From Bacillota bacterium (lineage in GTDB: Bacteria; Bacillota; Dethiobacteria; DTU022), in NCBI GenBank assembly GCA_029552125.1, contig JAKPEE010000159.1, forward strand, positions 1 to 35,925: a stretch of DNA of 35,925 nucleotides. Direction: 5' to 3'. This document shows, piece after piece, positions 7,503-29,187 of this stretch; the stretch's first letter is position 1; each line of letters begins with the position of its first letter. The position numbers were made by a program, and so were the translations under genes. The notes beneath the pieces were generated by a model. It searched no databases, was not told where the DNA came from, and worked only from the letters and a program-made list of their open reading frames with translations.

Positions 7503-8318
7503 TTAGGAAGAAGTCAATTCCCGGATATACTCGTCGAAGATACTCTGATAATTTTCCGGCTCAATCAAAAAGTCAAAAGCGTTAACATTCTCTTTAAAAA
7601 CCCGGTAAAGCGGCAACCCGGTAATCAGGTTAAGCTGGGACACGGGCGTTACCGGGCACCGCTGCAGTGCGGGCAAAATACTATAGTTCTTATTGCCTAT
7701 AAATTCAGGTCCATCGGGTGAATGCAGTTCAAAGTAGGCGCCGCCTCCCATTTTGCGGATTGGTTCATAGATTGACGAGAAGTGACGGGCTACCCAGTTA
7801 CTCATAATTAGATAATCGTCGCCGGGATTTATGGTAATATGACCATAATGCGGTGGAATTAACACTTTATCTCCCGGTTTAGCGGCAATAAAAATTACCG
7901 ATTCCAGCTCATCAAAACGCTCAGAAAAAGGTTTCTGCAGCAAGTAATGCGCCCGGCCATGCAGCACCTCGTACACTTCAGGGTAAGTGATCTTCTTTCC
8001 GGGCTTTTCAGGGTGGTAATGCCCCGCTGTTTTAATATATTCCCGGCCAATTACTCCCGGGCAGATTACGGTGATATCATAACGCAATCCCTTGTTTTCA
8101 ATGGTATTCTCATCCCCGGCAAGAGAAACACCGCGGTACATATAGTAAAGCTCATCCACGCCCTCCGCCCGCTCATCATAAAGCACATCGAGCATATCCC
8201 CTCGCCGGCGAATATCCGGCCGGGCTTCGGGAGTACTCATTTTTTCCCCGAAAACGAGTCTTTTTAGGGTTGAATCCCACTTCAAATCCAACCCGCTTTG
8301 TTTTGACAGATCAATCAT
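7503..8318 (-). CDS. cupin-type glucose-6-phosphate isomerase
   Basis: Interconverts glucose 6-phosphate and fructose 6-phosphate using the metal-dependent cupin fold known from Pyrococcus and other archaea, which is unrelated to the common Pgi. The cupin core shows the metal ligands H100 and H102 in TAGHYHPE, a Glu in ITYPEVYEV (E114) and H160 in PPHYGHITINPGD. The 271 residues exceed the roughly 190 of the archaeal enzymes because of an N-terminal extension of about 50 residues and a C-terminal tail. AAGGAGCG precedes the ATG. It follows gap by 82 bp in the same direction and ends at a terminator, so the two glycolytic genes are probably co-transcribed. Confidence 0.88.
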   Translation of the reverse strand: MIDLSKQSGLDLKWDSTLKRLVFGEKMSTPEARPDIRRRGDMLDVLYDERAEGVDELYYMYRGVSLAGDENTIENKGLRYDITVICPGVIGREYIKTAGHYHPEKPGKKITYPEVYEVLHGRAHYLLQKPFSERFDELESVIFIAAKPGDKVLIPPHYGHITINPGDDYLIMSNWVARHFSSIYEPIRKMGGGAYFELHSPDGPEFIGNKNYSILPALQRCPVTPVSQLNLITGLPLYRVFKENVNAFDFLIEPENYQSIFDEYIRELTSS

Positions 8319-17073: not shown

Positions 17074-17108
17074 AAAAAGGATTGGGGAAACCACCCCTGT
17101 GGCCCCCC
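17074..17108 (-). terminator. possible terminator of the V-ATPase operon
   Basis: GGGGGGCCAC (17108 downward) can pair with GTGGTTTCCCC (to 17084) with one bulge and G-U pairs, then AATCCTTTTT. It is the best terminator candidate between atpK and ywmB. The same gap (16961-17230) also holds the hairpin at 17133-17159. Confidence 0.4.
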
Positions 17109-17230: not shown

Positions 17231-17680
17231 TCAGGCGGCCATAGCGCTGATAATATTCATTAAGAAAACCATGGCCAATAACGCCACCGATTCGATGATA
17301 CCTAGAACAAGGACATATTGAGCAAACCCCTTGCCCGTCTCCCCAAAAGCGTCGCAGGCACTGGCCGCAGCTTTCCCCTGTAAATAAGCGGAGGCGCCGA
17401 TAGCGAGGCCGCCAAAAATGCCTATACCCAAAATGGTCCCGCTGTTTAAAGCAGCCAGGGAGCCAACAATGGTATTCATTAAAATCAAACCGTAGAAACT
17501 CTGTGACAGGGGGAACCCGGTTAAAGCTACCAGCAAAAAAGAAGCCGGTCTATTTTGCATAAACGCCCTCTTCCAGGCTCCCACGGCAGCCATGGCCGCT
17601 ACCCCGGTGCCCAGGGCGGAGCCACAGGCAGACAGTGCAAACGAAGCCCCAATACCGATTAATCCAAAATCAAAAGCCAT
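17231..17680 (-). CDS. atpK: V/A-type ATPase subunit K (membrane rotor ring)
   Basis: Proteolipid that forms the ion-carrying ring. The 149 residues from the ATG at 17680 form four helices, a duplicated two-helix hairpin. AAGGAG lies ten bases upstream. A longer frame opening at 17797 would add 39 basic residues overlapping atpI and is unlikely. Only the second hairpin has the ion-binding acid, Glu130 in GIIESVALL; the first has PLSQSFYG instead. Ser59, Gln60, Gln101 and Glu130 line up with Thr64, Gln65, Gln110 and Glu139 of the Enterococcus hirae Na+ ring, and the Gln-to-Glu distance is 29 residues in both. Na+ coupling is inferred. It is the last gene of the operon, 49 bp after atpI. Confidence 0.92.
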   Translation of the reverse strand: MAFDFGLIGIGASFALSACGSALGTGVAAMAAVGAWKRAFMQNRPASFLLVALTGFPLSQSFYGLILMNTIVGSLAALNSGTILGIGIFGGLAIGASAYLQGKAAASACDAFGETGKGFAQYVLVLGIIESVALLAMVFLMNIISAMAA

Positions 17681-17729: not shown

Positions 17730-19661
17730 TTAAAACCCGCTATTGATAGCCGTACCGGCAGGTGAAGAGAGCCTTTTCTCTTCAGGATTCGCCTCATACG
17801 AGCTAACCGGGTTTTGAAAAGGCGTAAACCGGTGGCCGGACCATTCTATACCCAGCCGCCCGGAAAACTCCAGCATGTTCAAGCGAATACCATGCACTAA
17901 AACACCCAGGCAACAGAGAATAAAGTTTAAAGTGTGACCCAGCAGCAAGACCAGGGCGCCCAGAACAAAGGTATTGCCTTCTAAAAGCCCGCCAACCATT
18001 TGATTAAAGCTCTTGGCAATTTCAGCACCAGCCAGCCCCACCGCAAAAAGTCGAATATAGGAAATAAGATCGCCAAAAGCGTTGACTGTTCCCAGGGCTG
18101 TGGGCAGCAAGTCTTTCAGGCCACCCAATACCCCCTTGATAAAGTTGCCTTCCTGCGAACCGAACAAGAGAGCCAGGCCCAATCCGCTCAGGATTAATAC
18201 AATACTGATCCGGCCGATCAGGCCACCGGTAGCGAAAGCTCCATCAAGGTCAAAATACATGACCATGCTTAAAACCAGATAAAACAGGCCGAAATTGACC
18301 GCTATCCAGCCAAGCTGGGCCACGGCTTTAAGAGAGCGATTGGCCAGATCACGCAGAAAATTCCAGACCTGAGCGATGGTCAGGTGAACCAGGGCAATGC
18401 AAAAACACAACAGCTTGATTACATCTTGTCCTGATAACCTCTGGTATAACTCCCCGGCAGGAGTATAGACATCGACTCCTTCAATAAGCTGAACTACAAC
18501 CAGCTTCTCCAGGAAGGTCCCCCTGATCAGGTCAAAGCTGCCGAACCATTGGCCGTTCAGCGTACCCCATGCTACGGTAGCCAGCCCCAGGGTAGTAAAT
18601 AGCCAGCCAAGCAAAGGAGGCTTCCTTCTCCTGGCGATACTGAGTGTCACAGCCAGGAGCCCCCCCCCTAAAAAAATGACTCCGTAGGCAGCATCGCCGA
18701 TGATCATGGCAAAAAAGATGATAAAGAATACAAAGAAAAAGAAACTGATATCTAATTCACGGTAACCCGGCACAGTGCCCAGGAAATCAAAAACCGGTTC
18801 GATCATTTTAAGCCACCTGGGGTTGCGTACCAGGGTTGGCACGGCGTCATCCTCACCGGGGTCGGCAACGGCCAGGGCTACGGAATTTCGGCCGGCCCAA
18901 TCTTTCAAGCTCTTCACCTGGTCAGCAGGAACATAACCGGAAATGGCTGTAAGATTCCCTTCTTCCAGCATGTTTGCTTTAGCTACCTGGTATTCCAGTT
19001 CGTGTTCCAGTTCGGCCATGTACTGCTTAATAACCGGTCTAAGCGCATAACACTCAACCAATTTATCTTTTAGGCCATCAATGCGCTTTAACAACTCAAT
19101 TACTTCGGTTTTTAAAACTCGAAGGCTTTTAGCCGGAGGGACAAACTCCTCAAAGCCTTCCAGTCTGACGGGGCTGCGCGTAATGTGGGCAAAGATGGCG
19201 CAGTTTTTCCCCCTCTGCATCATGACTACATCTTCTTCGGGAATTTCTTCTACCTGATCCCCATAAGCAGTATAAATGCGCACATACCAGCCTTTCTGTG
19301 CCAGAAATTGAAAATCCCCGGGATCAAAATCTCCCCATTTTTCCAGTTCGGCAATCTGTTTATACAGAGAAACAACGCGATCCTTAAAGTGATGCAGTTC
19401 TTCGTTCAACTTTACAACTGTTTCCGTCGCCTGCCGTCCGTCCAGGGAGGCAGCAGGAGCTTCTTTTTTGGGTTTAAACTCGGCCAAGATAAGATAAGCG
19501 GCGGCCGCCCGGTTAAGCTCAGTAGAAACAGCTTCTACCTCGGGGGAAGAACACTGAAATTTTTCCAGGTGAACAAGACCAAGCTCCCTTAAAGAGTCAA
19601 GGGTAGAATCCTTGTCTTTGGCCTGGACAACCATGGTCACCTTTTTCATGGGTACAATCAT
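17730..19661 (-). CDS. atpI: V/A-type ATPase subunit I (stator membrane subunit)
   Basis: Subunit I (eukaryotic subunit a homologue) holds the ion half-channels and links the membrane part to the peripheral stalks. The 643 residues divide into a cytoplasmic N-terminal half with coiled coil (about 1-300, beginning MKKVTMVVQAKDKDSTLDSLRELGLVHLE from residue 5) and a membrane half with seven to eight helices. Membrane signatures include IIFFAMIIGDAAYGVIFL and GDLISYIRLFAVGLAGAEIAKSFN; the Arg in the latter helix is the conserved channel residue. It ends with HTLNFILCCLGVLVHGIRLNMLEFSGR, close to the normal family end. It starts three bases after the atpD stop. Confidence 0.94.
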   Translation of the reverse strand: MIVPMKKVTMVVQAKDKDSTLDSLRELGLVHLEKFQCSSPEVEAVSTELNRAAAAYLILAEFKPKKEAPAASLDGRQATETVVKLNEELHHFKDRVVSLYKQIAELEKWGDFDPGDFQFLAQKGWYVRIYTAYGDQVEEIPEEDVVMMQRGKNCAIFAHITRSPVRLEGFEEFVPPAKSLRVLKTEVIELLKRIDGLKDKLVECYALRPVIKQYMAELEHELEYQVAKANMLEEGNLTAISGYVPADQVKSLKDWAGRNSVALAVADPGEDDAVPTLVRNPRWLKMIEPVFDFLGTVPGYRELDISFFFFVFFIIFFAMIIGDAAYGVIFLGGGLLAVTLSIARRRKPPLLGWLFTTLGLATVAWGTLNGQWFGSFDLIRGTFLEKLVVVQLIEGVDVYTPAGELYQRLSGQDVIKLLCFCIALVHLTIAQVWNFLRDLANRSLKAVAQLGWIAVNFGLFYLVLSMVMYFDLDGAFATGGLIGRISIVLILSGLGLALLFGSQEGNFIKGVLGGLKDLLPTALGTVNAFGDLISYIRLFAVGLAGAEIAKSFNQMVGGLLEGNTFVLGALVLLLGHTLNFILCCLGVLVHGIRLNMLEFSGRLGIEWSGHRFTPFQNPVSSYEANPEEKRLSSPAGTAINSGF

Positions 19662-19664
19662 TGC

Positions 19665-20264
19665 TTATATTGTCCCCCTGACCAGTTTATTCTTGGCCAT
19701 CTTGCCCCGTACGACGGCAGCGGTCTGCTGATCTCCCAGGAAAATATTGATCATGCGGATGTTTTCTTTCGTCTCGGGAATCTTTACCTTTTCAAACAAG
19801 TTCACCCGCTGAGCGGTGACTCTTAATTCGGCCGCCAGCAAGGCCGCCTGTTTTTCTAAAAACGATAGAACCATATCCAGTGTGGCCAGCTCCTGAAGCT
19901 TTTTAACGGCGGCGTCTACCCAGAAGGGGTAAGCCAGCAGGTCATAGGCAACCGCTTCAAACTTTACCTCCATTAAAATGGGTAGATCCACCCCGGCGAT
20001 ATTAGTCGAACTTGTACAAACTTCTTTTACCTGAACCAGATGCGCAATGGCAATGTTTTCCCCAAAAACATCGACCCATTCCAGCAGTTCCTCAAAGGCT
20101 TCTTGCCGCTGTAGCCGCTTGTCTTCAATTTGCCGCTCCACATTGCGGACCTCGGTTTGAAGAAGCTGCTTCTTTAATACCAGGGTAGGCAGGTAACGTT
20201 GAAACCGCTTGAGCTGGTCCTTTTGTCTTTTTAGCTCATTTTTGGTCAGCTTTATTTTTGCCAT
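19665..20264 (-). CDS. atpD: V/A-type ATPase subunit D (central rotor shaft)
   Basis: Central shaft subunit that turns inside the A3B3 head. At 199 residues it is of normal length and consists mainly of two long helices for the coiled coil: an N-terminal one starting KIKLTKNELKRQKDQLKRFQRYLPTLVLKKQLLQ and a C-terminal one with VTAQRVNLFEKVKIPETKENIRMINIFLGDQQTAAVVRGKMAKNK in pieces typical of NtpD. The RVN.FE motif and the KxK-rich C-terminus are family hallmarks. The ATG lies four bases after the B-subunit stop. Symbol follows the bacterial V-type naming and is not the F-type beta subunit. Confidence 0.93.
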   Translation of the reverse strand: MAKIKLTKNELKRQKDQLKRFQRYLPTLVLKKQLLQTEVRNVERQIEDKRLQRQEAFEELLEWVDVFGENIAIAHLVQVKEVCTSSTNIAGVDLPILMEVKFEAVAYDLLAYPFWVDAAVKKLQELATLDMVLSFLEKQAALLAAELRVTAQRVNLFEKVKIPETKENIRMINIFLGDQQTAAVVRGKMAKNKLVRGTI

Positions 20265-20268
20265 AAAA

Positions 20269-21567
20269 TCATACCTTAGTGGGCCAGTATTGAGACACCA
20301 GATCCGATCTTAAGCCGGTCTCGGCAGGCTCGAAACATTTTGCTAAGATTTCCCATCCTTTGTCCAACGCCGCTTCTAAAGGAATGTTAACAGACAGATC
20401 CATCATTTCCCGTTCAAACAGTTCTCCATAAGCCAAAAGCTTTTCGTCCCAATCGGACATCTTGAAGCCCATGGCTTTTTTCTCCAGGGATTCTTTATAA
20501 GAAGCATATAGCTTGATCATCCCGTCCATCAGGGCGCGGTGGTCCGGGCGGGTTTTCCCATTGACCAGCTGTTTCAGCCGGGACAGGGAGCCGAAAGGTT
20601 CAATGCGACCGTTGCGAAGATAAAACTGGCCCTCTGTAATATAGCCGGTATTATCCGGCACCGGGTGGGTCACGTCATCACCGGGCATGGTAGTTACGCC
20701 CAGGATGGTAATAGAGCCAGCCTGTTCAAAGTCGACCGCTTTTTCATAGCGGGCGGCCAGCTGGGAATAAAGATCTCCGGGGTAGCCCCGGTTGGAGGGG
20801 ACCTGCTCCATGGTAATGGCAATTTCTTTCATGGCATCGGCAAAGTTGGTCATATCGGTTAGTAAAACCAAGACCCGCTTGCCGCGGGTGGCAAACCCTT
20901 CAGCCACCGCCAGGGCAATATCGGGCACCATCAGACATTCCACCACCGGATCTGAAGCAGTGTGGACGAAAAAAATGGTCCTGGACAAAACGCCGCCCTG
21001 TTCCAGGCTCTCTTTAAAGAAAAGATAGTCATCATACTTGAGGCCCATGCCCCCAAGGATGATCAGATCTACTTCTGCTTGTAGAGCGATGCGGGCCAGC
21101 AGCTCGTTATATGGTTCTCCCGAGACAGAAAAGATAGGCAGCTTTTGCGATTCCACCAGGGTATTAAAAAGATCGATCATCGGGATGCCGGTCCGCACCA
21201 TGCGGCGGGGGATAATCCTCTGGGCCGGGTTAACGGAGGGGCCGCCAATTTCGATGAGAGAGTCGGTCAGTTCAGGGCCGCCGTCGCGGGGACGGCCGGA
21301 TCCGTCAAAGATTCTCCCCAGAAGATTATCGGAAAAGGAAACCATCATCGGGTGGCCCAGGAAACGCACCTCGTCGCCGGTCGATATGCCTCGAGAGCCG
21401 TTAAACACCTGCAAAGCCACCTCGTCATGCCTCAGGCGGATTACCTCCGCCAATGAAGGGCCATACTTTGTTTCCACCACAGCCAGTTCTTTATAACGAA
21501 CACCCGTGGCGGTCACAGTAATCACGTTTCCCGAAATTGATTCTATTTTGCTATAAATTTTCCGCAA
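20269..21567 (-). CDS. atpB: V/A-type ATPase subunit B
   Basis: Non-catalytic subunit of the A3B3 head. It has a beta-barrel N-terminus ([17 protein letters not shown]) and a RecA-like core with [19 protein letters not shown] in the degenerate P-loop position. The signatures [41 protein letters not shown] and [25 protein letters not shown] run through the core in family order. I take the TTG at 21567 as start, ten bases after AAGGAG; the GTG at 21576 would leave just one base of spacing. The N-terminus overlaps the end of atpA by about 17 bp, so translation is coupled. The product is about 432 residues, somewhat shorter than the archaeal-type B subunit. Confidence 0.93.
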
Positions 21568-23338
21568 GCTTTGCACTCTCCTTGCAGCTAACCTGGGTGC
21601 CGGCCCCGGCAGAGGCGGTCACTTTTTCAGCAAGCAGCCGGCGAATGGCCTGTTCCTGTTCCTTGAAATCATCACTCATCCATGGCTTGCCGTTATAGTC
21701 CAAAAAGCCCTGCCGCATCTGGTTAAACCAGCCGCGGGCTTCTTCCTTGCTGCCAAATTTTAATTCGGCAGTCAGCACTTCCATAATGAAATCATAAACA
21801 TATCGCTGGCGTTCGGGTTCAACAGCGCTATCCACGGGATCAAAGGAGTTTTGCTGCAGATAAACAGCATCTAAAAATTCTGCTTTAAGGTAGATTACAT
21901 AATCTTCTAAAGAAGTACCCTCTTCGCCGACCACCTTCATCATCTGGTCCACCTCGTCACCTTTAAACAGGATGGAACGCCCATACTCTGCCTTTGACGC
22001 ATCGATAATCCCCGGGTATTTGGACCAGGATTCCAGAGGGTGGATGGCCGGGTATTTCCGGGCATCGGAGCGCTGGCGTGAAAGACCGTGAAACGCTCCG
22101 ACCACCTTTAAAGTAGCCTGGGTTACCGGCTCTTCAAAGTTGCCACCGGCCGGGGAAACAGTGCCGCCGATGGTTACCGAGCCTAGAGCACCATTTTTCA
22201 GGCGGACCAGGCCGGCCCGCTCATAGAAGGCGGCGATTATTGATTCAAGGTAAGCAGGGAAGGCCTCTTCGCCCGGGATCTCCTCCAGCCGGCCGGACAT
22301 CTCGCGCATAGCCTGGGCCCAGCGTGAAGTCGAATCGGCAAGCAACAGGACATGCAAGCCCATCTGGCGGTAATATTCGGCCATAGTAACGGCAGTGTAA
22401 ACAGAAGCTTCCCGGGCGGCCACAGGCATGGAAGAGGTATTGCAAATAATGATCGTCCTCTCCATCAACGAGCGGCCAGTTTTGGGGTCTATTAACTCGG
22501 GGAATTCTTTTAAGGTCTCCACGACCTCTCCAGCCCGTTCACCGCAGGCAGCCACAATGACAATATCCACTTCCGCATTCCGGGAAGTAATCTGCTGCAG
22601 CACAGTCTTGCCGGCGCCGAAAGGCCCGGGAATGCAGTAAGTGCCGCCTTTAGCCACCGGGAAAAAAGTGTCGATGATCCTGACCTTGGTAATAAGCGGT
22701 TCGCTGGGTTTGAGCCGTTCGGCATAGCACTTAACAGGCCGTTTTACGGGCCAGGAGAACACCATGGTTAACTGGTGCAGGTTGCCTTTTTCGTCTTCAA
22801 CTTCCGCGATTATATCACGCAAACGATAAAGGCCTGCCCCGGCTATACTCTTTACTGTCAGTGTTCCGTCTAGGTAAAAGGGAACCATGATCAAGTGGTT
22901 AAAAATTCCTTCCTTGACGGAACCGATAGGCATGCCTGCTTCAACTTTGCTGCCCTGGTTAACGGAAGGAGTAAAATCCCACTGGCGGGATTCGTCAAGG
23001 GGTGAAGGATAGATCCCCCGCTCCAGGAAGAACCCGCACCGGGCAGCCAACTGGGGCAAGGGGTTTTGCAGTCCGTCGAATACCTGGCCCAACAGCCCGG
23101 GTCCGAGCTGGACGCTTAATAACTCTCCGGTAAACTCGACCTCATCGCCTACGCCAATGCCTTTGGTAATTTCGAAAACCTGAACGTCGGCTACATTGCC
23201 CTTTACCCGGATAACCTCAGATTTAAGTTTTTTCCCACCGGTGACGATGTAGCATACTTCATTCATGGCCACTTCACCGGTGAATTCCACTGAAACCATA
23301 TTGCCGCTAACGCCAATTACCCTGTTAATGGTCTTCAT
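21551..23338 (-). CDS. atpA: V/A-type ATPase catalytic subunit A
   Basis: Catalytic ATP-hydrolysing/synthesising subunit, 595 residues. The order is a beta-barrel (1-75), the inserted non-homologous region typical of V/A-type A subunits (about 115-200), then the nucleotide-binding domain. Walker A is GPFGAGKT (238-245) with Lys244, one Ser-to-Ala change from the usual GPFGSGKT. Walker B and nearby catalytic blocks follow at [18 protein letters not shown] and [34 protein letters not shown]. The helical C-terminal domain ends normally. Start four bases after the stop of the small upstream gene; its ribosome binding site is poorly spaced, so translational coupling is likely. Confidence 0.96.
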
Positions 23339-23342
23339 TCCT

Positions 23343-23903
23343 TTACTGCATATTTTTCCACATACAGTGTTGATGCAAATTTTCCTTTACTTCTTCATAT
23401 ATTTTCTCAAATATTTCCTGGCCAGTAATTTTCTGGAATTTTTCCTGGCGCAAAGCAAGCTGGAGTTTTAAATAATAAGCAATTAAAGCCTCCAGGTTAA
23501 AATAATGGACCGCACTAACTTCCTCGACAAAGCTCCAGCGAAGATTGTTTAAATAGCTTTCCACAGCCAGGGGCGAATCCAGGGCCAGGGCTGTCTTAAC
23601 CTTTTCCAGTAGCAAATCGCGGCCATCTGATTCAGGCAACGGCTGAGGTGAAGAAAATTTCACTGTAGCAAGGCGCGCTTTGGCCAGTTCCAGTCTGAGT
23701 TCCTTTTCCCAGGAAAGAATACGATCCGCAAAAGGAAAACCGGTCGGCTCCAGCGAACCCCACCTGCTTTTGCATAAAACCCGGTAATGATCCGGCCGCA
23801 CAGTATCTGCCGCAAGCTGAATAAATACATCTTCCCTGATGGGAACTTTATCCCCCAGCCTGAGAGCCGGCAAAGCCGCGATGGTATAATAATATTGATT
23901 CAC
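23343..23903 (-). CDS. V-ATPase operon protein X (DUF2764-like)
   Basis: Protein of 186 residues between the E and A genes, the position taken by the uncharacterised X gene in E-X-A-B-D-I-K type operons of Chlamydiae, spirochaetes and Bacteroidetes. The N-terminal NQYYYTIAALPALRLGD resembles the start of DUF2764 proteins (YYYLVAGLPxL...). The rest is mostly helical, with a conserved-looking FNLEALIAYYLKLQLALRQEKF near the end. It may stand in for subunit C, which is missing, and connect rotor and ring; this is inference from context. Its ATG overlaps the atpE stop by 4 bp. The family call is from memory of the motif, not a search. Confidence 0.65.
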   Translation of the reverse strand: MNQYYYTIAALPALRLGDKVPIREDVFIQLAADTVRPDHYRVLCKSRWGSLEPTGFPFADRILSWEKELRLELAKARLATVKFSSPQPLPESDGRDLLLEKVKTALALDSPLAVESYLNNLRWSFVEEVSAVHYFNLEALIAYYLKLQLALRQEKFQKITGQEIFEKIYEEVKENLHQHCMWKNMQ

Positions 23904-24523
23904 CGCATTTCCTCCTGCTCCTCCAGGGCTTCTTTTAAGATCCCTGCAAGCTCAGGGGTAAGGAATTCTGCTAAAATATCGGCAATGCCTTCTCTGCTAA
24001 AATCATAAAGGGCCCCGTCTGAACCCCCGATACGAAACCCTTTAGCTACTTTGGGGGAAGGGATAATCTCTACACCCTCTTTAAAACGGCTGGCCAGCTT
24101 CGCTTTCAGGCCGGCGCCCAGTTCTCTGGCCTCCTTCGAGGAAAGAACAATTTGAATTCCCCCGGCACCCTTCTCCGACCAGGCCGCGGCCGCCTCCAGG
24201 ATCAATTTTTCCGTTAAAGCAGGCGACAAAGCGGTATCCACCGCCTGATTAATGACTGCCTTAAACTGGCTGATTATTTGCTTTTCCAGGCCAATTAAAA
24301 TATCCCGGGCTGCCTGCTTTAAGGCCTCCCGGCCGGCAGCTTCTTTCTTCTTAATTTCATTTTCGGCCTGTAATCTATACGATTCGGCTTCAGCAACGGC
24401 TTTTTTAACTATCTGTTCAGCCTTCTCTTCGGCGCCGGCAATTATCTTCTTGGCCTCATTCTCTGCAGAAATAACCCCTTCATTTTTAATTTTCTCAATT
24501 AGTTCTTTAACCTGAATATTCAT
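23900..24523 (-). CDS. atpE: V/A-type ATPase subunit E (peripheral stalk)
   Basis: Peripheral stalk subunit, first gene of the V-ATPase operon. From the ATG at 24523 the 207 residues form a long charged N-terminal helix (IKNEGVISAENEAKKIIAGAEEKAEQIVKKAVAEAE, roughly 13-50, Ala/Glu/Lys-rich coiled coil), followed by a globular C-terminal domain with GIQIVLSSKEARELG and GFRIGGSDGALYDFSREGIADILAEFLTPEL, as in NtpE/AtpE. AAGG lies nine bases before this ATG; in-frame TTG and GTG codons at 24532 and 24529 are less well spaced. A partner G subunit (second stalk helix) is not encoded nearby. Confidence 0.9.
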   Translation of the reverse strand: MNIQVKELIEKIKNEGVISAENEAKKIIAGAEEKAEQIVKKAVAEAESYRLQAENEIKKKEAAGREALKQAARDILIGLEKQIISQFKAVINQAVDTALSPALTEKLILEAAAAWSEKGAGGIQIVLSSKEARELGAGLKAKLASRFKEGVEIIPSPKVAKGFRIGGSDGALYDFSREGIADILAEFLTPELAGILKEALEEQEEMR

Positions 24524-24630
24524 GTTCACCAACCTTCGGCAATAATTCTTACAAAAACTGGTTCATTTGAGCTGAAATTGGCATAATCAAACGCTGTTCA
24601 GACGCTTGGTTGTTTCTTATCTAAGGTCAT

Positions 24631-24660
24631 ACCATACCACATGTTAAGAGGGAGTGTCAA
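24631..24660 (-). promoter_or_regulatory. sigma-A promoter of the V-ATPase operon
   Basis: TTGACA (24660-24655), 18 bp, TATGGT (24636-24631) with TGG before it, an extended -10. This perfect -35 lies about 100 bp before atpE, so the ATPase operon has its own vegetative promoter separate from glyA-upp-comEB. The leader of about 100 bases contains no structure I recognise. Confidence 0.72.
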
Positions 24661-24742: not shown

Positions 24743-25189
24743 CTAGCAAACACGGTATGCTACCATCTTGCCGTTAATATCCAAATATTTTACCTCTTCA
24801 ATCATGGCGTTTTTAATCATCCGCCGGCACATCAGGCAGGGCTCTCCCGAGGCAAAAGATCCGTCAGAGCTGAAACCGGCTATATAAATGGTCGAGCCTT
24901 TCATCATCACCGGGTCGCCGTTGATAATAGCATTCTGCTCGGCATGTACAGCTACACACAGCTCATAGCGCTCGCCTTTAGGCACGTTTAGCGCCTGGCG
25001 GGTACATATTCCTGTATCGAGACAATTTGCTTCCCCTCTGGCCGAACCGTTAAACCCGGTACTGACAATGACCCTATCTTTAACGATTATGGCGCCATAG
25101 CGCCTTCTTAAGCAGGTCGATCGTTTTGAGATCACCTGGGCAATCTCTAAAAAATAGTCATCCCAGCCAGGTCTGTTATTTGCGGACAT
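24743..25189 (-). CDS. comEB: dCMP deaminase (ComEB-like)
   Basis: Zinc-dependent deoxycytidylate deaminase that makes dUMP for dTMP synthesis. The 148 residues contain the zinc site His in AVHAEQNAIING (catalytic Glu beside it) and the two cysteines in GEPCLMCRRMIKN. The N-terminus WDDYFLEIAQVISKRSTCLRRRYGAIIVKD is typical of the ComEB/DCTD group, with an extra Cys/His set for a second zinc site. ATG start after a GGAG-type site. It follows upp by 14 bp, so the two pyrimidine-salvage genes are probably co-transcribed. The name ComEB comes from the Bacillus competence operon, but the biochemical role is nucleotide metabolism. Confidence 0.9.
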   Translation of the reverse strand: MSANNRPGWDDYFLEIAQVISKRSTCLRRRYGAIIVKDRVIVSTGFNGSARGEANCLDTGICTRQALNVPKGERYELCVAVHAEQNAIINGDPVMMKGSTIYIAGFSSDGSFASGEPCLMCRRMIKNAMIEEVKYLDINGKMVAYRVC

Positions 25190-25203
25190 GCGTACACTCC
25201 TTA

Positions 25204-25833
25204 CTATTCTGTCCCGAAGAGGCGGTCTCCGGCATCTCCCAACCCGGGAACGATATAGGCTTTATCATTCAACTTCTCGTCAATAGCTGTGAGAAATATC
25301 TGCACCTCGGGATGGTTATGCCGCAGCGTATGAAGTCCTTCAGGTGAAGCAATGAGGCTAAGCAGCTTGATCCGCCTTACTCCCCTCTTTTTTAGAGCGA
25401 CAATAGCATGGGCGGCTGAACCCCCTGTAGCGAGCATCGGTTCTAAAAGAAAACATTCGCCCTGCTCAACTCCATGGGGAAGTTTACAGTAGTATTCCAC
25501 GGGCTCAAAGGTCTCATGATCGCGGTAAAGGCCGATATGACCGGCTTTGGCATTGGGAAACATGCGCAACGCCCCGGTCAACATGCCCAGGCCCGCTCTT
25601 AACACGGCTATAAACACAGGCTGAGGGCCGCTTATGACTCGTCCAGTTGTGCCGGATACAGGTGTTTCCAGTTGAATTTCCTTTAGCGGCATGTCACGAG
25701 TGGCTTCATAGAGCATCAGGGCAGTAATCTCTTCTACCAGTTCACGAAACTTCCATGGTTCAGTTTCTTTCTGGCGGCACCGGGTCAGCTTATCCTGGAC
25801 CAGCGGGTGGTTTACAACAACAACATGCTCCAT
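25204..25833 (-). CDS. upp: uracil phosphoribosyltransferase
   Basis: Pyrimidine salvage enzyme: uracil + PRPP to UMP. At 209 residues it is full length. Family blocks are NHPLVQDKLTRCRQKETEPWKFRELVEEI, FIAVLRAGLGMLTG, the PRPP-binding loop EPMLATGGSAAHAI (the usual Asp-Pro-Met-Leu-Ala-Thr-Gly-Gly motif with Glu in place of Asp) and the uracil-binding C-terminus YIVPGLGDAGDRLFGTE. It lies between glyA and comEB; glyA-upp followed by the ATP synthase operon is the Bacillus arrangement. The ATG is about 20 bp after the glyA-side start region in the direction of transcription, consistent with co-transcription. Confidence 0.96.
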   Translation of the reverse strand: MEHVVVVNHPLVQDKLTRCRQKETEPWKFRELVEEITALMLYEATRDMPLKEIQLETPVSGTTGRVISGPQPVFIAVLRAGLGMLTGALRMFPNAKAGHIGLYRDHETFEPVEYYCKLPHGVEQGECFLLEPMLATGGSAAHAIVALKKRGVRRIKLLSLIASPEGLHTLRHNHPEVQIFLTAIDEKLNDKAYIVPGLGDAGDRLFGTE

Positions 25834-25853
25834 TATCAGTTTAGGCTCCCTCG

Positions 25854-27119
25854 CTAATATATTGGAAAATCACTGCATAACTGGCTTACCTGCTTTTTCA
25901 CCCGCTCCAGATTCCCGGGATAATGGCGGCTTTCCAAAGTTTCATGAATCAGGCGGCCGATTAACTCCATCTCCTGCGGTCCCATGCCCCGGGAGGTCAC
26001 GACCGGGGTCCCGAGACGCAAGCCGCTGGTAACCCGGCGATTCTGGGGATCGAAGGGAATCGCATTTTTATTGGCGGTAATACCAACCTGGTCTAAGAGC
26101 CTTTCCGCCTCCAAGCCGGTTATCCCTCTGGAGCGGAGATCCAGCAGGATCATATGGGTATCCGTACCCCCGGTTACCACGTGGTAACCATAATCCATCA
26201 GAATTTGAGCCAGAACCGCGGCATTTTCCAGCACTTTTTTTTGATAAGCAATAAATTCCGGAGTTTGCGCTTCTTTAAAAGCTACCGCTTTGGCGGCAAT
26301 AACATGCATCAACGGCCCCCCCTGCAGCCCGGGGAAAACGGCTTTATCAATAGCAGCAGCATATTCGCGCCGGCACAGGATAAACCCTCCCCTGGGGCCG
26401 CGCAGGGTTTTATGGGTAGTAGAGGTAACAACATGGGCCAAAGGAACCGGATTAGGGTGAAGCCCCGCGGCGATTAGACCGGCCACATGAGCCATATCAA
26501 CCATAAAAAAAGCGCCGGTTTCATGAGCAATTCCGGCAAAAGCGCTGAAATCAATGTGGCGCGGATAGGCACTGGCTCCGGCGATAATCAGCCGGGGCCG
26601 CACTTTTAACGCCAGAGACCTGACCTGATCGAGGTCGATTAAACCCGATGCCCGGTCCACGCCGTAACTGTAGGCCCGGTAATAGCGTCCGGTAATACTG
26701 GCGGGGGCTCCATGGGTCAAGTGGCCTCCATGGGCCAGATCCATGCCAAGTATAGAATCGCCGGGTTTTAATAAGGCCACATAAACAGCAAGATTGGCCG
26801 GCGCGCCGGCGTGGGGCTGGACGTTGGCATGCTCTGCTCCAAATAGGGCCATAGCCCGCCTGCAGGCCAGCTCTTCCGCGGCATCAACATACTCACAACC
26901 CCCGTAATAGCGGGCTTTGGGGTAGCCTTCCGCATATTTGTTGGTTAAAATTGAACCCTGAACCTGGAGTACCGCCCTGCTTGCTATATTTTCTGAAGCG
27001 ATTAATTCCAGGCGGGATTGCTGACGCAGTAATTCTTTCTCAATGATGGCGGCAATTTCCGGGTCAGTTTGACCCAGCGCGTCGGTACTGTCTTTATCCT
27101 GGTATGACAACCTGCCCAT
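25854..27119 (-). CDS. glyA: serine hydroxymethyltransferase
   Basis: PLP enzyme that interconverts serine and glycine and charges tetrahydrofolate with a one-carbon unit. The 421 residues include [41 protein letters not shown], the PLP-binding Lys237 in [15 protein letters not shown] and the C-terminal [17 protein letters not shown]. The usual QPHSGAQAN loop reads QPHAGAPAN here, two substitutions near the cofactor phosphate; all other catalytic positions that I can see are standard. It lies 25 bp after rpiB and 20 bp before upp. Confidence 0.96.
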
Positions 27120-27144
27120 TCCTTTGCTCCCTTCACCGCACTAA

Positions 27145-27600
27145 TCAATAAAAATTACGCTCGCTTTTTTCAATCATGGCTATTTTATTAATCCTGTTTT
27201 GATGGCGGCCCCCGGAAAACGGAGTTTTTAAAAAAATGTCGACTATCTCCAACGCCAGTCCGGGGCCGGTAACCCTGGCACCCAAAGTTAAAATGTTGGC
27301 ATCATTATGTTCCCTGGCGCACCGGGCGGTGTAGGAATCCCCACATAAAGCCGCCCTGATCCCGGTATATTTACAGGCTGCAATAGCCATGCCTACGCCG
27401 GTGCCGCAAATTAAAATCCCATATTGAAATTCGCCCGTTTTAATGCCCCGGGCTACAGGGACAACTATATCGGGATAGTCAACGCTGTTTTCACAAAAGG
27501 TGCCGAAATCGGTAAAATCAATTTCCTTCTCCCGCAGAAATGCCTTAACCTTTTCTTTTAAAGGAAAACCGGCATGGTCACTGCCCAGAGCGACCTTCAT
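27145..27600 (-). CDS. rpiB: ribose-5-phosphate isomerase B
   Basis: Sugar-phosphate isomerase of the RpiB/LacAB fold that interconverts ribose 5-phosphate and ribulose 5-phosphate. The 151 residues show MKVALGSDHAGFPLKEKVK, VDYPDIVVPVARGI, the active-site segment GILICGTGVGMAIAACKYTGIRAALCGD with its catalytic Cys, and REHNDANILTLGARV. ATG start after AGGAGG; the N-terminus overlaps the end of ywlE by 23 bp. The ywlC-ywlE-rpiB-glyA-upp series is conserved with Bacillus. The C-terminal tail (about 15 residues, basic) is longer than usual but not remarkable. Confidence 0.94.
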   Translation of the reverse strand: MKVALGSDHAGFPLKEKVKAFLREKEIDFTDFGTFCENSVDYPDIVVPVARGIKTGEFQYGILICGTGVGMAIAACKYTGIRAALCGDSYTARCAREHNDANILTLGARVTGPGLALEIVDIFLKTPFSGGRHQNRINKIAMIEKSERNFY

Positions 27601-28069
27601 CGACGCCGCCTCCTTTCAACCTGTTCATAAGTTTCGCGATACTTTCACGAATTTCCTCCAGGGTGTGCCGGTATTTTACTAAAGAGCAACCAAAAGGATC
27701 CGCTATGTCGAGGTTTGAAGCGTTAATGCCGGCATATTCTTTTAATAGATACGTTTTCGCTCTGGCTTGCGGAAAACGTGCCAGCAAAGCTTCCTTATGC
27801 CCGGCGGTCATGACCAGAATTAATTCTGCTTTCTCCACCAGCGCATCGTCCAGGAGGGCGGCTTCGTGGGCAGAGACATCCACCCCTTCTTCTGACAGTA
27901 ATGTATGGACATGCTCCGAAGCTTGATCGCCGGGAATGGCAGCCAGGCCTGCTGAAGAAATTTCCAGTTCGCGGCCGTCCCCTTCCTGCTCCCAGTAATG
28001 TCGCAACAAGGCTTCCGCCATAACGCTGCGGCAGGTATTCCCTGTGCAGACAAAAAGAATATTGGGCAT
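27578..28069 (-). CDS. ywlE: protein-arginine-phosphatase YwlE (low-molecular-weight phosphatase family)
   Basis: Phosphatase that removes phosphate from arginine residues placed by McsB and so counters McsB/ClpCP protein turnover. The 163 residues carry the P-loop VCTGNTCRSVMAEALL; the Thr after Asn (T in GNTCR) is the residue that marks arginine-phosphatase specificity, where tyrosine phosphatases have Ile or Leu. The general acid lies in DIADPFG. An unusual Val stands after CRS, where YwlE usually has Pro. It sits between ywlC and rpiB as in Bacillus. mcsB is not in the window, so the activity is assigned by motif. Confidence 0.88.
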   Translation of the reverse strand: MPNILFVCTGNTCRSVMAEALLRHYWEQEGDGRELEISSAGLAAIPGDQASEHVHTLLSEEGVDVSAHEAALLDDALVEKAELILVMTAGHKEALLARFPQARAKTYLLKEYAGINASNLDIADPFGCSLVKYRHTLEEIRESIAKLMNRLKGGGVDEGRSGQ

Positions 28070-28085
28070 CTAAATCTCCTTCCCT

Positions 28086-29099
28086 TTAAACACGAATTAC
28101 GCGAAAAGCGGCTTTCCCGAGCCGGTTCATTACCGCCACGCCAAGACCCCGGGAAGCGATCCCCTCGGCCAGGATAACACCGGCTTTAAGGGCATCACAG
28201 CGGCGCAAACTCCTGAAAAGATGGCGGGAAATGTTTTCGACATCATCATCCCCCTGCTGATTCAAAAAATCAGCGAGCAGGCATACTTTCAAACCTCTCC
28301 GCTCATAGAAATTCGCTAAAATATGCAGCAGGCGTCTTCGCCTGGAAGGCGGCCCGGTCACTAAAATTAACGGCGCCCGGGGGGCGTAATGGCGGTATTT
28401 CATTCCCGGGGAAGGCGGTATGCTAACTCCTTTCCAGGAGGCCTGAAAAACCGGTTCGCCCAGGGCGGAAGTCAAAGCTTCCCGCGTAATACCACCCGGC
28501 CGTAGAATTACGGCACGGGGGCCGGTTAAATCCAGCACAGTGGATTCCACCCCGATCCGGCAGGTTCCACCGTCCAGCACTGCATCAATCCGTCCGGCCA
28601 GGTCTTCCAGCACGCAGCGCGCACTGGTGGGACTGGGGCGGCCGGAACGATTGGCGCTGGGGGCTGCAATCGGGACCCCGGCAGTGCGTATTAGCTCGAG
28701 AGCTACTGGATGAGACGGCATGCGGACAGCTACAGTCGGCAGCCCCGCGCTGACCAGGTCAGGCACAGCGCTGCTGCGGGGCAGGACAAGGCTAAGGGGC
28801 CCCGGCCAAAACCGTTCCATTAAAAAATGAGCACGTTCCGGGACGGAAGAAGCAACCCGGTAGACCTGCTCCCTGTCCGAAACATGAACAATAAGGGGAT
28901 TATCCGATGGACGCCCTTTGGCTGAGAATATGCGGGCTACAGCGGCTGGATCGCTGGCAGAGGCGCCCAACCCGTATACAGTTTCCGTGGGGAACGCTAC
29001 CAGGCCGCCTGCGCGGATGATTTCAGCAGCTTTGCGTATAGCCGGGAAGTCCGATCTTAACCAAAGCGTTCCTTTTAGTGGCGATAAGGTCTTCTCCAT
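28086..29099 (-). CDS. ywlC: L-threonylcarbamoyladenylate synthase (Sua5/YwlC)
   Basis: Makes threonylcarbamoyl-AMP for the t6A37 modification of ANN-reading tRNAs such as the tRNA-Thr in this window. The 337-residue protein is the long Sua5 form: a YrdC domain (about 15-210, with GGLVAFPTETVYGLGASA, SAKGRPSDNPLIVHV and the SPTSARCV region) and a C-terminal Sua5 domain entered by SPGMKYRHYAPRAPL. I use the ATG at 29099; a GTG one codon earlier is nearly on top of the AAGGGG site. It is 16 bp before ywlE and downstream of the Na+/phosphate symporter gene. Confidence 0.94.
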   Translation of the reverse strand: MEKTLSPLKGTLWLRSDFPAIRKAAEIIRAGGLVAFPTETVYGLGASASDPAAVARIFSAKGRPSDNPLIVHVSDREQVYRVASSVPERAHFLMERFWPGPLSLVLPRSSAVPDLVSAGLPTVAVRMPSHPVALELIRTAGVPIAAPSANRSGRPSPTSARCVLEDLAGRIDAVLDGGTCRIGVESTVLDLTGPRAVILRPGGITREALTSALGEPVFQASWKGVSIPPSPGMKYRHYAPRAPLILVTGPPSRRRRLLHILANFYERRGLKVCLLADFLNQQGDDDVENISRHLFRSLRRCDALKAGVILAEGIASRGLGVAVMNRLGKAAFRVIRV

Positions 29100-29187
29100 C
29101 ACTACCCCTTTTGGAAGTCGCCGGCTGTAAACATGCCCTCACCTGATTACGATAACCGAAACCCGGGGAATTTATGAGACCATAATT

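Follow-up and report, generated by a model that had tools for sequence, protein, structure and literature searches.

A divergent branch of V-type ATPases from Chlamydia, Borrelia, Treponema, and Bacteroides is already known and is described as the only membrane rotary ATPase of most Chlamydia and spirochaetes (PMC2359735). The V-ATPase of Bacteroides fragilis (ptos_002482-88) is encoded by seven genes with few connecting subunits, the second encoding a DUF2764 protein without assigned function and none being recognised as subunit C, F, or G; this enzyme decides survival in deoxycholate and, as in the genome studied here, stands beside an F-type enzyme (PMC10790697). In Thermus thermophilus, subunit C (also called d) sits on the c-ring and holds a short helix of the central shaft D in its cavity (eLife 2020, PMC7367684). 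The Thermus enzyme additionally has F and an E subunit paired with G, and neither F nor G is recognised in the type studied here. Because C seemed to be missing, the coupling of ring and shaft has so far been unexplained for the whole branch.

Here we analyse an operon of this type from a Bacillota genome, located in a stretch of 35,925 nucleotides that we call the window, and focus on its one unexplained gene, X. We propose that X is very probably homologous to V/A-ATPase subunit C (the d subunit of eukaryotes and Thermus), though shortened and fast-diverging, and that it serves as the ring-to-shaft socket. The operon type as such is known, and the new part is our proposal that DUF2764 corresponds to subunit C; we found no title or abstract equating the two in the open-access literature, with most full texts outside the scope of that search.

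A seven-gene V-type ATPase operon

The V-type ATPase operon of the window comprises seven adjacent genes on the minus strand in the order E-X-A-B-D-I-K (Table 1). V-type NCBIfam models were assigned to the six genes other than X, with the best models for B, D, and K exceeding their cut-offs and those for E and I giving strong matches below them. PRK01558, PRK02118, PRK02195, PRK05771.2-2, and PRK06649 are, we assume, models of spirochaete-type enzymes. Subunit I also matches PF01496 (E 6.5e-6, under its cut-off), the D subunit aligns with Thermus D over residues 2-194 at E 0.006, and K found no match among PDB sequences at E 0.01.

The open reading frame of E begins with a TTG at 24532, though the ATG at 24523 is the likelier start. 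Since the GTG of X shares bases with the TGA that ends E (GTGA), the translational coupling of X to E proposed in the first-pass annotation is plausible, and the start of A follows four bases past the stop of X. The same annotation had credited the operon with its own promoter and a possible terminator; candidate sites lie upstream of E and downstream of K, but in number such sites are close to, or only somewhat above, chance expectation (9 promoter-like sites against a mean of 7.3 in shuffled sequence and 20 terminator-like sites against 11.2).

Table 1. Positions of the ATPase genes, the putative signals flanking them, and the segments of X discussed in the text.
Feature	Positions	Strand	Remarks
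Subunit E (peripheral stalk)	23900..24532	-	PRK01558, E 5.7e-51, under its cut-off
X, DUF2764 protein	23343..23903	-	186 aa, GTG start; proposed reduced subunit C (ring-to-shaft socket)
Subunit A (catalytic)	21551..23338	-	PRK04192, 773 bits (cut-off 470)
Subunit B	20269..21576	-	PRK02118, 766.5 bits (cut-off 431)
Subunit D (central shaft)	19665..20264	-	PRK02195, 241.9 bits (cut-off 189)
Subunit I (stator / ion channel)	17730..19661	-	PRK05771.2-2, E 1.6e-149, under its cut-off
Subunit K (rotor ring)	17231..17680	-	duplicated hairpin, ATG at 17680; PRK06649, 182 bits (cut-off 127)
Promoter-like sequence	24631..24660	-	TTGACA-18-TATGGT, TG before the second hexamer; upstream of E; 10/12 consensus matches
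Terminator-like hairpin	17085..17108	-	10 pairs, T-rich tail; downstream of K
N-terminal motif of X	23868..23894	-	YYYTIAALP, residues 4-12, present as YYYTIAALPALRLGD
Long helix of X	23664..23735	-	residues 57-80, pattern wE..LR.eLa..Ra
C-terminal part of X	23382..23579	-	residues 109-174; PF10962 match, profile positions 203-269

In our alignment, K shares Q60, Q101, and E130 with the K subunits of Bacteroidota. These presumably correspond to the Na+ ligands known in Enterococcus hirae, and their conservation is a hint that the enzyme may be a sodium pump. Upstream of the operon (24743-29102), we read genes for dCMP deaminase, upp, glyA, rpiB, a low-molecular-weight phosphatase, and a Sua5-like protein. 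In many Bacillota a cluster of the dCMP deaminase-upp-glyA-rpiB type precedes the F-type atp operon, so the V-type operon may occupy the usual place of the F-type genes. A full F-type gamma gene is encoded on contig 67 of the same genome (G000; L008, L025; E 8.4e-95), which indicates that the cell has an F-type enzyme too and thus two rotary ATPases. We also note that positions 7503-8318 of the window by eye resemble a cupin-type glucose-6-phosphate isomerase, a form better known from archaea.

Distribution of the operon type

Five aligned B subunits served as the query for related loci, and the best 80 of at least 558 were taken; by their titles these are 74 spirochaetes, three Bacillota, and three Aminicenantes. 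All seven genes are visible in 48 of these best 80 loci and colinear in each of the 48. Among the best 80 (of at least 558) loci, 66 extend beyond 700 nt upstream of A, and X is present in every one of them, detected by tblastn in 65 and with the X HMM in L041 (E 9.4e-57), and it invariably lies between E and A. One of these loci is that of Borreliella bissettiae (NC_015921.1, L101), which shares all seven genes and their order with the window and has a B subunit 78% identical to that of the window and an X of the short form that is only ca. 22% identical. Bacteroidota records filed as plasmids have the identical gene order with the second gene annotated as DUF2764, as in Bacteroides finegoldii (E, DUF2764, A, B, D, I, K), though the Bacteroides B subunit is only ca. 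47% identical to that of the window. The operon is thus a V-ATPase of the known spirochaete/Bacteroidota type and no peculiarity of this organism.

Within the phylum of the window, PF10962 (DUF2764) has matches at E 0.001 in 8 of 398 genomes, four of X type and four that are really subunit C, and X is therefore rare within Bacillota. Spirochaete B subunits share 78-83% identity with that of the window, which would fit a horizontal transfer into this Bacillota lineage.

Several loci deviate in their details. One spirochaete operon (L057:7392-9889) has ca. 2.5 kb between D and I, where elsewhere there are usually a few dozen bases or fewer, and in L041 (2793-3731) the spirochaete X lies inside a 313-residue open frame that is longer than the others and would add an N-terminal part if translated in full. 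Two Rhodobacterales plasmids (L140:10687-11513 and L141:10866-11555) carry the V-type order B, D, I, K, stalk, X-like, A; the X-like sequence is split over two frames on the Tateyamaria plasmid and matches PF10962 at only E 0.22 on the Qingshengfaniella plasmid.

Standard C, F, and G genes in X-bearing genomes

The first-pass annotation had found no recognisable C, F, or G in the operon, and our search of the genome for distant copies (assembly 87% complete) likewise detected no standard one. PF01992 (C) gave no match, PF01990 (F) gave none at E 0.001, either to X or to another gene (the best, at E 0.06, is a 349-residue frame below cut-off), and the coiled-coil matches of TIGR02926 and PF16999 (H/G), among them E itself, all fell below cut-off; the canonical V/A-ATPase gene set of C, F, and G/H is thus not seen over cut-off. 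Eight further X-bearing genomes show the same absence, including that of Borreliella bissettiae with its "complete sequence" record. Across the X-bearing genomes searched, C exceeds its cut-off in none of nine (with two sub-cut-off matches at E 0.05 and 0.31), F in none of 17, and H and G each in none of nine. The case is weaker for G because the H and G models have limited sensitivity, exceeding their cut-offs in only three and two of 14 control genomes, and give sub-cut-off matches in all nine X-bearing genomes, several to E itself. With this gradation, F and G look absent at the level of profile searches.

Among 40 related genomes, X is found in seven (that of the window included) and C in 22, never both. 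The chance of no overlap is 0.0017 if genomes are taken as independent, which they are not, so we use this exclusion as supporting evidence only. The two types can alternate between species of one genus (g6), with C in G006 and X in G021. The V-ATPases of such sister genera (e.g., G006 and L108), which come from the same family as the window, are canonical, with a C of ca. 335 aa matching PF01992 and no X.

The wider set of X-bearing genomes differs from that of the window in this respect. From the 80 loci we chose 32, with L057 not included among those tested, and of the 31 tested genomes with an X-type operon 15 have a standard C elsewhere (G430, G433, G434, and 12 others). An I-like gene adjoins C in four of ten such loci examined, a sign of a second V-type operon, and these genomes, many of them from spirochaetes, therefore probably hold two different V-type ATPases.

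X belongs to DUF2764, and DUF2764 is linked to subunit C

The suggestion that X might belong to DUF2764 is borne out by a PF10962 match at E 2.3e-11 (44.3 bits, curated cut-off 24.1), and all 64 members of the X alignment match the same profile at E up to 1. The small open frame with its N-terminal motif is as first described, and in the 64 sequences L11 of this motif is invariant while Y4, Y5, and P12 are conserved in at least 90%. X proteins measure 175-228 aa (65 sequences) versus 332-377 aa for C (33 sequences), and the DUF2764 proteins of three Bacteroidota records have a long form of 280-292 aa. The alignments of X omit loci without an X match, mostly cut by contig ends, as well as L030, L036, L052, and L064, which had no good start or were cut; the set used for hhalign has 65 sequences (the window, 63 loci, and one from L012), and L136 was excluded from the C alignment. 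X also weakly resembles DUF4835 (E 0.015) and the T9SS protein PorD (E 0.0065, 15.5 bits, cut-off 170), but these matches are far below cut-off and were set aside.

The link to subunit C runs through the family and its long form. PF10962 matches four C subunits (E 6.8e-7, 2.3e-5, 6e-5, and 9.9e-4; two of the four over cut-off) that are unmistakably C by their PF01992 matches (E 2.5e-60 to 3.3e-74). In the reverse direction, the DUF2764 protein of Bacteroides finegoldii (L138) matches PF01992 over profile positions 71-314 at E 4.4e-6, with 26.7 bits just under the cut-off of 29. Against the link stand the Parabacteroides DUF2764 protein (L139), without a PF01992 match at E 1, and X itself, which has none at E 10; the 64 X homologues likewise have none at E 1. 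Searches of PDB chains with X alone gave nothing at E 10, and the same result for the HMM of 64 X sequences also counts against the reading of X as C. X thus appears to be a C homologue that is expected to work like C, and not a member of PF01992.

A profile of three Bacteroidota DUF2764 sequences aligns end to end with that of X (hhalign E 2e-18); the alignment contains a large gap of ca. 80 residues and a smaller one. What X lacks is chiefly the segment that comes after the N-terminal motif of the long form and contains LFYLKFDNANVLKLLKDKEA, and this stretch of the long form pairs with the RYDVHNLK stretch of the C alignment; the pattern of the long X helix (Table 1) lines up with NLNINNIL..tcRK of Bacteroidota DUF2764. 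Compared with C, the Bacteroidota profile reaches E 2.8e-4 for Bacillota C and 0.0015 for all C, whereas its controls stay at 0.053 (best of 20 column-shuffled C alignments), 0.37 (reversed C), 0.3 (E), and 0.66 (D); against spirochaete C there is nothing (E 0.33), which counts against the link. Combining the Bacteroidota and X sequences gives a weaker match to C (0.035) than Bacteroidota alone. The direct comparison of the X alignment with C is not significant (0.07 for all C, 0.016 for Bacillota C, 0.021 for spirochaete C; controls 0.036 for reversed C, 0.34 for E, 0.71 for D, and 0.16 as the best of 20 shuffles).

As a ranking control, 2,482 open frames from the collected loci were searched with each HMM. 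With that of the three Bacteroidota DUF2764 sequences, the first unrelated frame appears at rank 94 (E 0.095) and all frames above it are DUF2764 or C, including seven C frames that represent four distinct genes because some loci overlap. With the C HMM, DUF2764 accounts for each of the five best-ranking frames other than C (E 0.056-2.0). The X HMM gave no significant match outside DUF2764, the best being the Tateyamaria fragment at the X position (E 0.89) followed by a C (E 1.5). A rank test on these open frames (p 1e-30) is confounded by frame length and relatedness and was not used as evidence.

This chain of significant matches from X over Bacteroidota DUF2764 to C argues computationally for homology within the subunit C superfamily, with X falling short of the ca. 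330 aa and the full first lobe of a complete C. Most likely, DUF2764 as a family is subunit C, with a long Bacteroidota form (ca. 280-290 aa) that keeps recognisable C signatures, while the spirochaetes and this Bacillota lineage seem to keep a form of ca. 175-228 aa that has lost most of the first lobe.

The same data bear on the idea that X is an assembly factor outside the finished complex. A small, fast-diverging protein that is translationally coupled to E could be one, and its presence in the complex is our inference. We consider this unlikely given that X is found in 66 of the 66 loci (among the best 80 of at least 558) reaching far enough upstream, always between E and A, that its family is homologous to C, and that none of the nine genomes searched offers another C candidate.

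Predicted structure of X

AlphaFold2 predicts an all-helical fold for the X of the window (64 homologues; pLDDT 91.8, pTM 0.83), in line with the helical body described in the first-pass annotation, and a similarly confident model for that of Borreliella (43 homologues; pLDDT 90.1, pTM 0.81). Both models are compact, multi-helix, and without strands; the two proteins are 22% identical, and as the models share most of their input sequences they are not fully independent. Among 566 chains compared using VIA-align, the top four rows for the window X are Thermus C at Z 6.4, 6.2, 6.2, and 6.0 (next 4.1), and among 352 chains the top four for the Borreliella X are again Thermus C at Z 6.0, 5.8, 5.5, and 5.5 (next 4.2), with a Z of ca. 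6 lying under the program's own caution level for helical folds. The alignments to Thermus C (PDB 1r5z, 1v9m, 6ly9, 8ywt; 312-322 residues) take in nearly the whole of X, with 159-165 residues at an rmsd of ca. 5 Å and 6-9% identity. Residues 1-169 of X are spread over 4-315 of C, i.e., nearly all of it, as expected for a shortened copy.

Foldseek returned no significant match to any family for either model, listing 1r5z at rank 4 for the window X (E 1.9, TM 0.22) and 1v9m at rank 15 for the Borreliella X (E 4.1). Taken with the non-significant direct X-C comparison and the modest Z of ca. 6, this could mean that the resemblance is fortuitous, of the kind that helical bundles and short profile matches can produce, and that X is something new with a role yet to be assigned. 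We regard such a coincidence as highly unlikely since profile matches run both ways via the Bacteroidota form, the shuffle and ranking controls speak for the link, and the two models retrieve identical top four entries. No unrelated enzyme gave a confident match in the structural comparison that the first-pass annotation had suggested as a check.

The models also speak to two other roles. As a helical protein encoded beside E in genomes where G and H exceed their cut-offs in none of nine cases, X might be a stalk part that replaces G; this is extremely improbable for a compact multi-helix protein, not a long coiled coil, with subunit C as its best structural match. It is equally hard to credit that X stands in for F beside shaft D within A3B3: F is over cut-off in none of the 17 X-bearing genomes, as such a replacement would have it, but F is an alpha/beta protein, neither X model has strands, and the homology of X is with C.

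A proposed reduced subunit C as ring-to-shaft socket

Among the roles that had been left open for X, i.e., connector, assembly factor, or stalk part, we thus favour the connector, in the form of a reduced C. The broader notion that X takes the place of C, F, and G together does not hold up, as the evidence points to C only and nothing suggests F or G. The shaft D and the ring are both kept in the window, and a socket derived from C is the simplest reading. X would rest on the cytoplasmic side of the K-ring and hold the lower tip of shaft D in a cavity, so that K-ring, X, and D would turn together as one rotor and X would do the job of C with about half the protein. The enzyme would then consist of A3B3, D, X, I, the K-ring, and stalks made of E only, probably paired with itself; G would be lacking and F would have been lost without a substitute.

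How far this extends is less certain, and our DUF2764 comparisons drew on spirochaete, Bacteroidota, and Bacillota sequences. We see roughly even chances that DUF2764 is the overlooked C of the entire Chlamydia/spirochaete/Bacteroidota branch and that the 186-residue X is the complete ring-to-shaft coupling of the smallest known V-type rotary enzyme, with seven kinds of subunits, E-only stalks, and no F. For Chlamydia trachomatis, we take CT309, the gene between atpE and atpA, to be the X gene of the V-ATPase operon. CT309 has been tested as a candidate secreted effector and was scored "Not secreted" (PMC12671076), and its expression is low (PMC3931295). If DUF2764 is subunit C, this score would have an ordinary reason. 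Apart from F and G, the parts list of the branch would then be complete, a family of unassigned function would gain a role, and the enzyme would be a natural test of the minimum protein needed for torque transfer.
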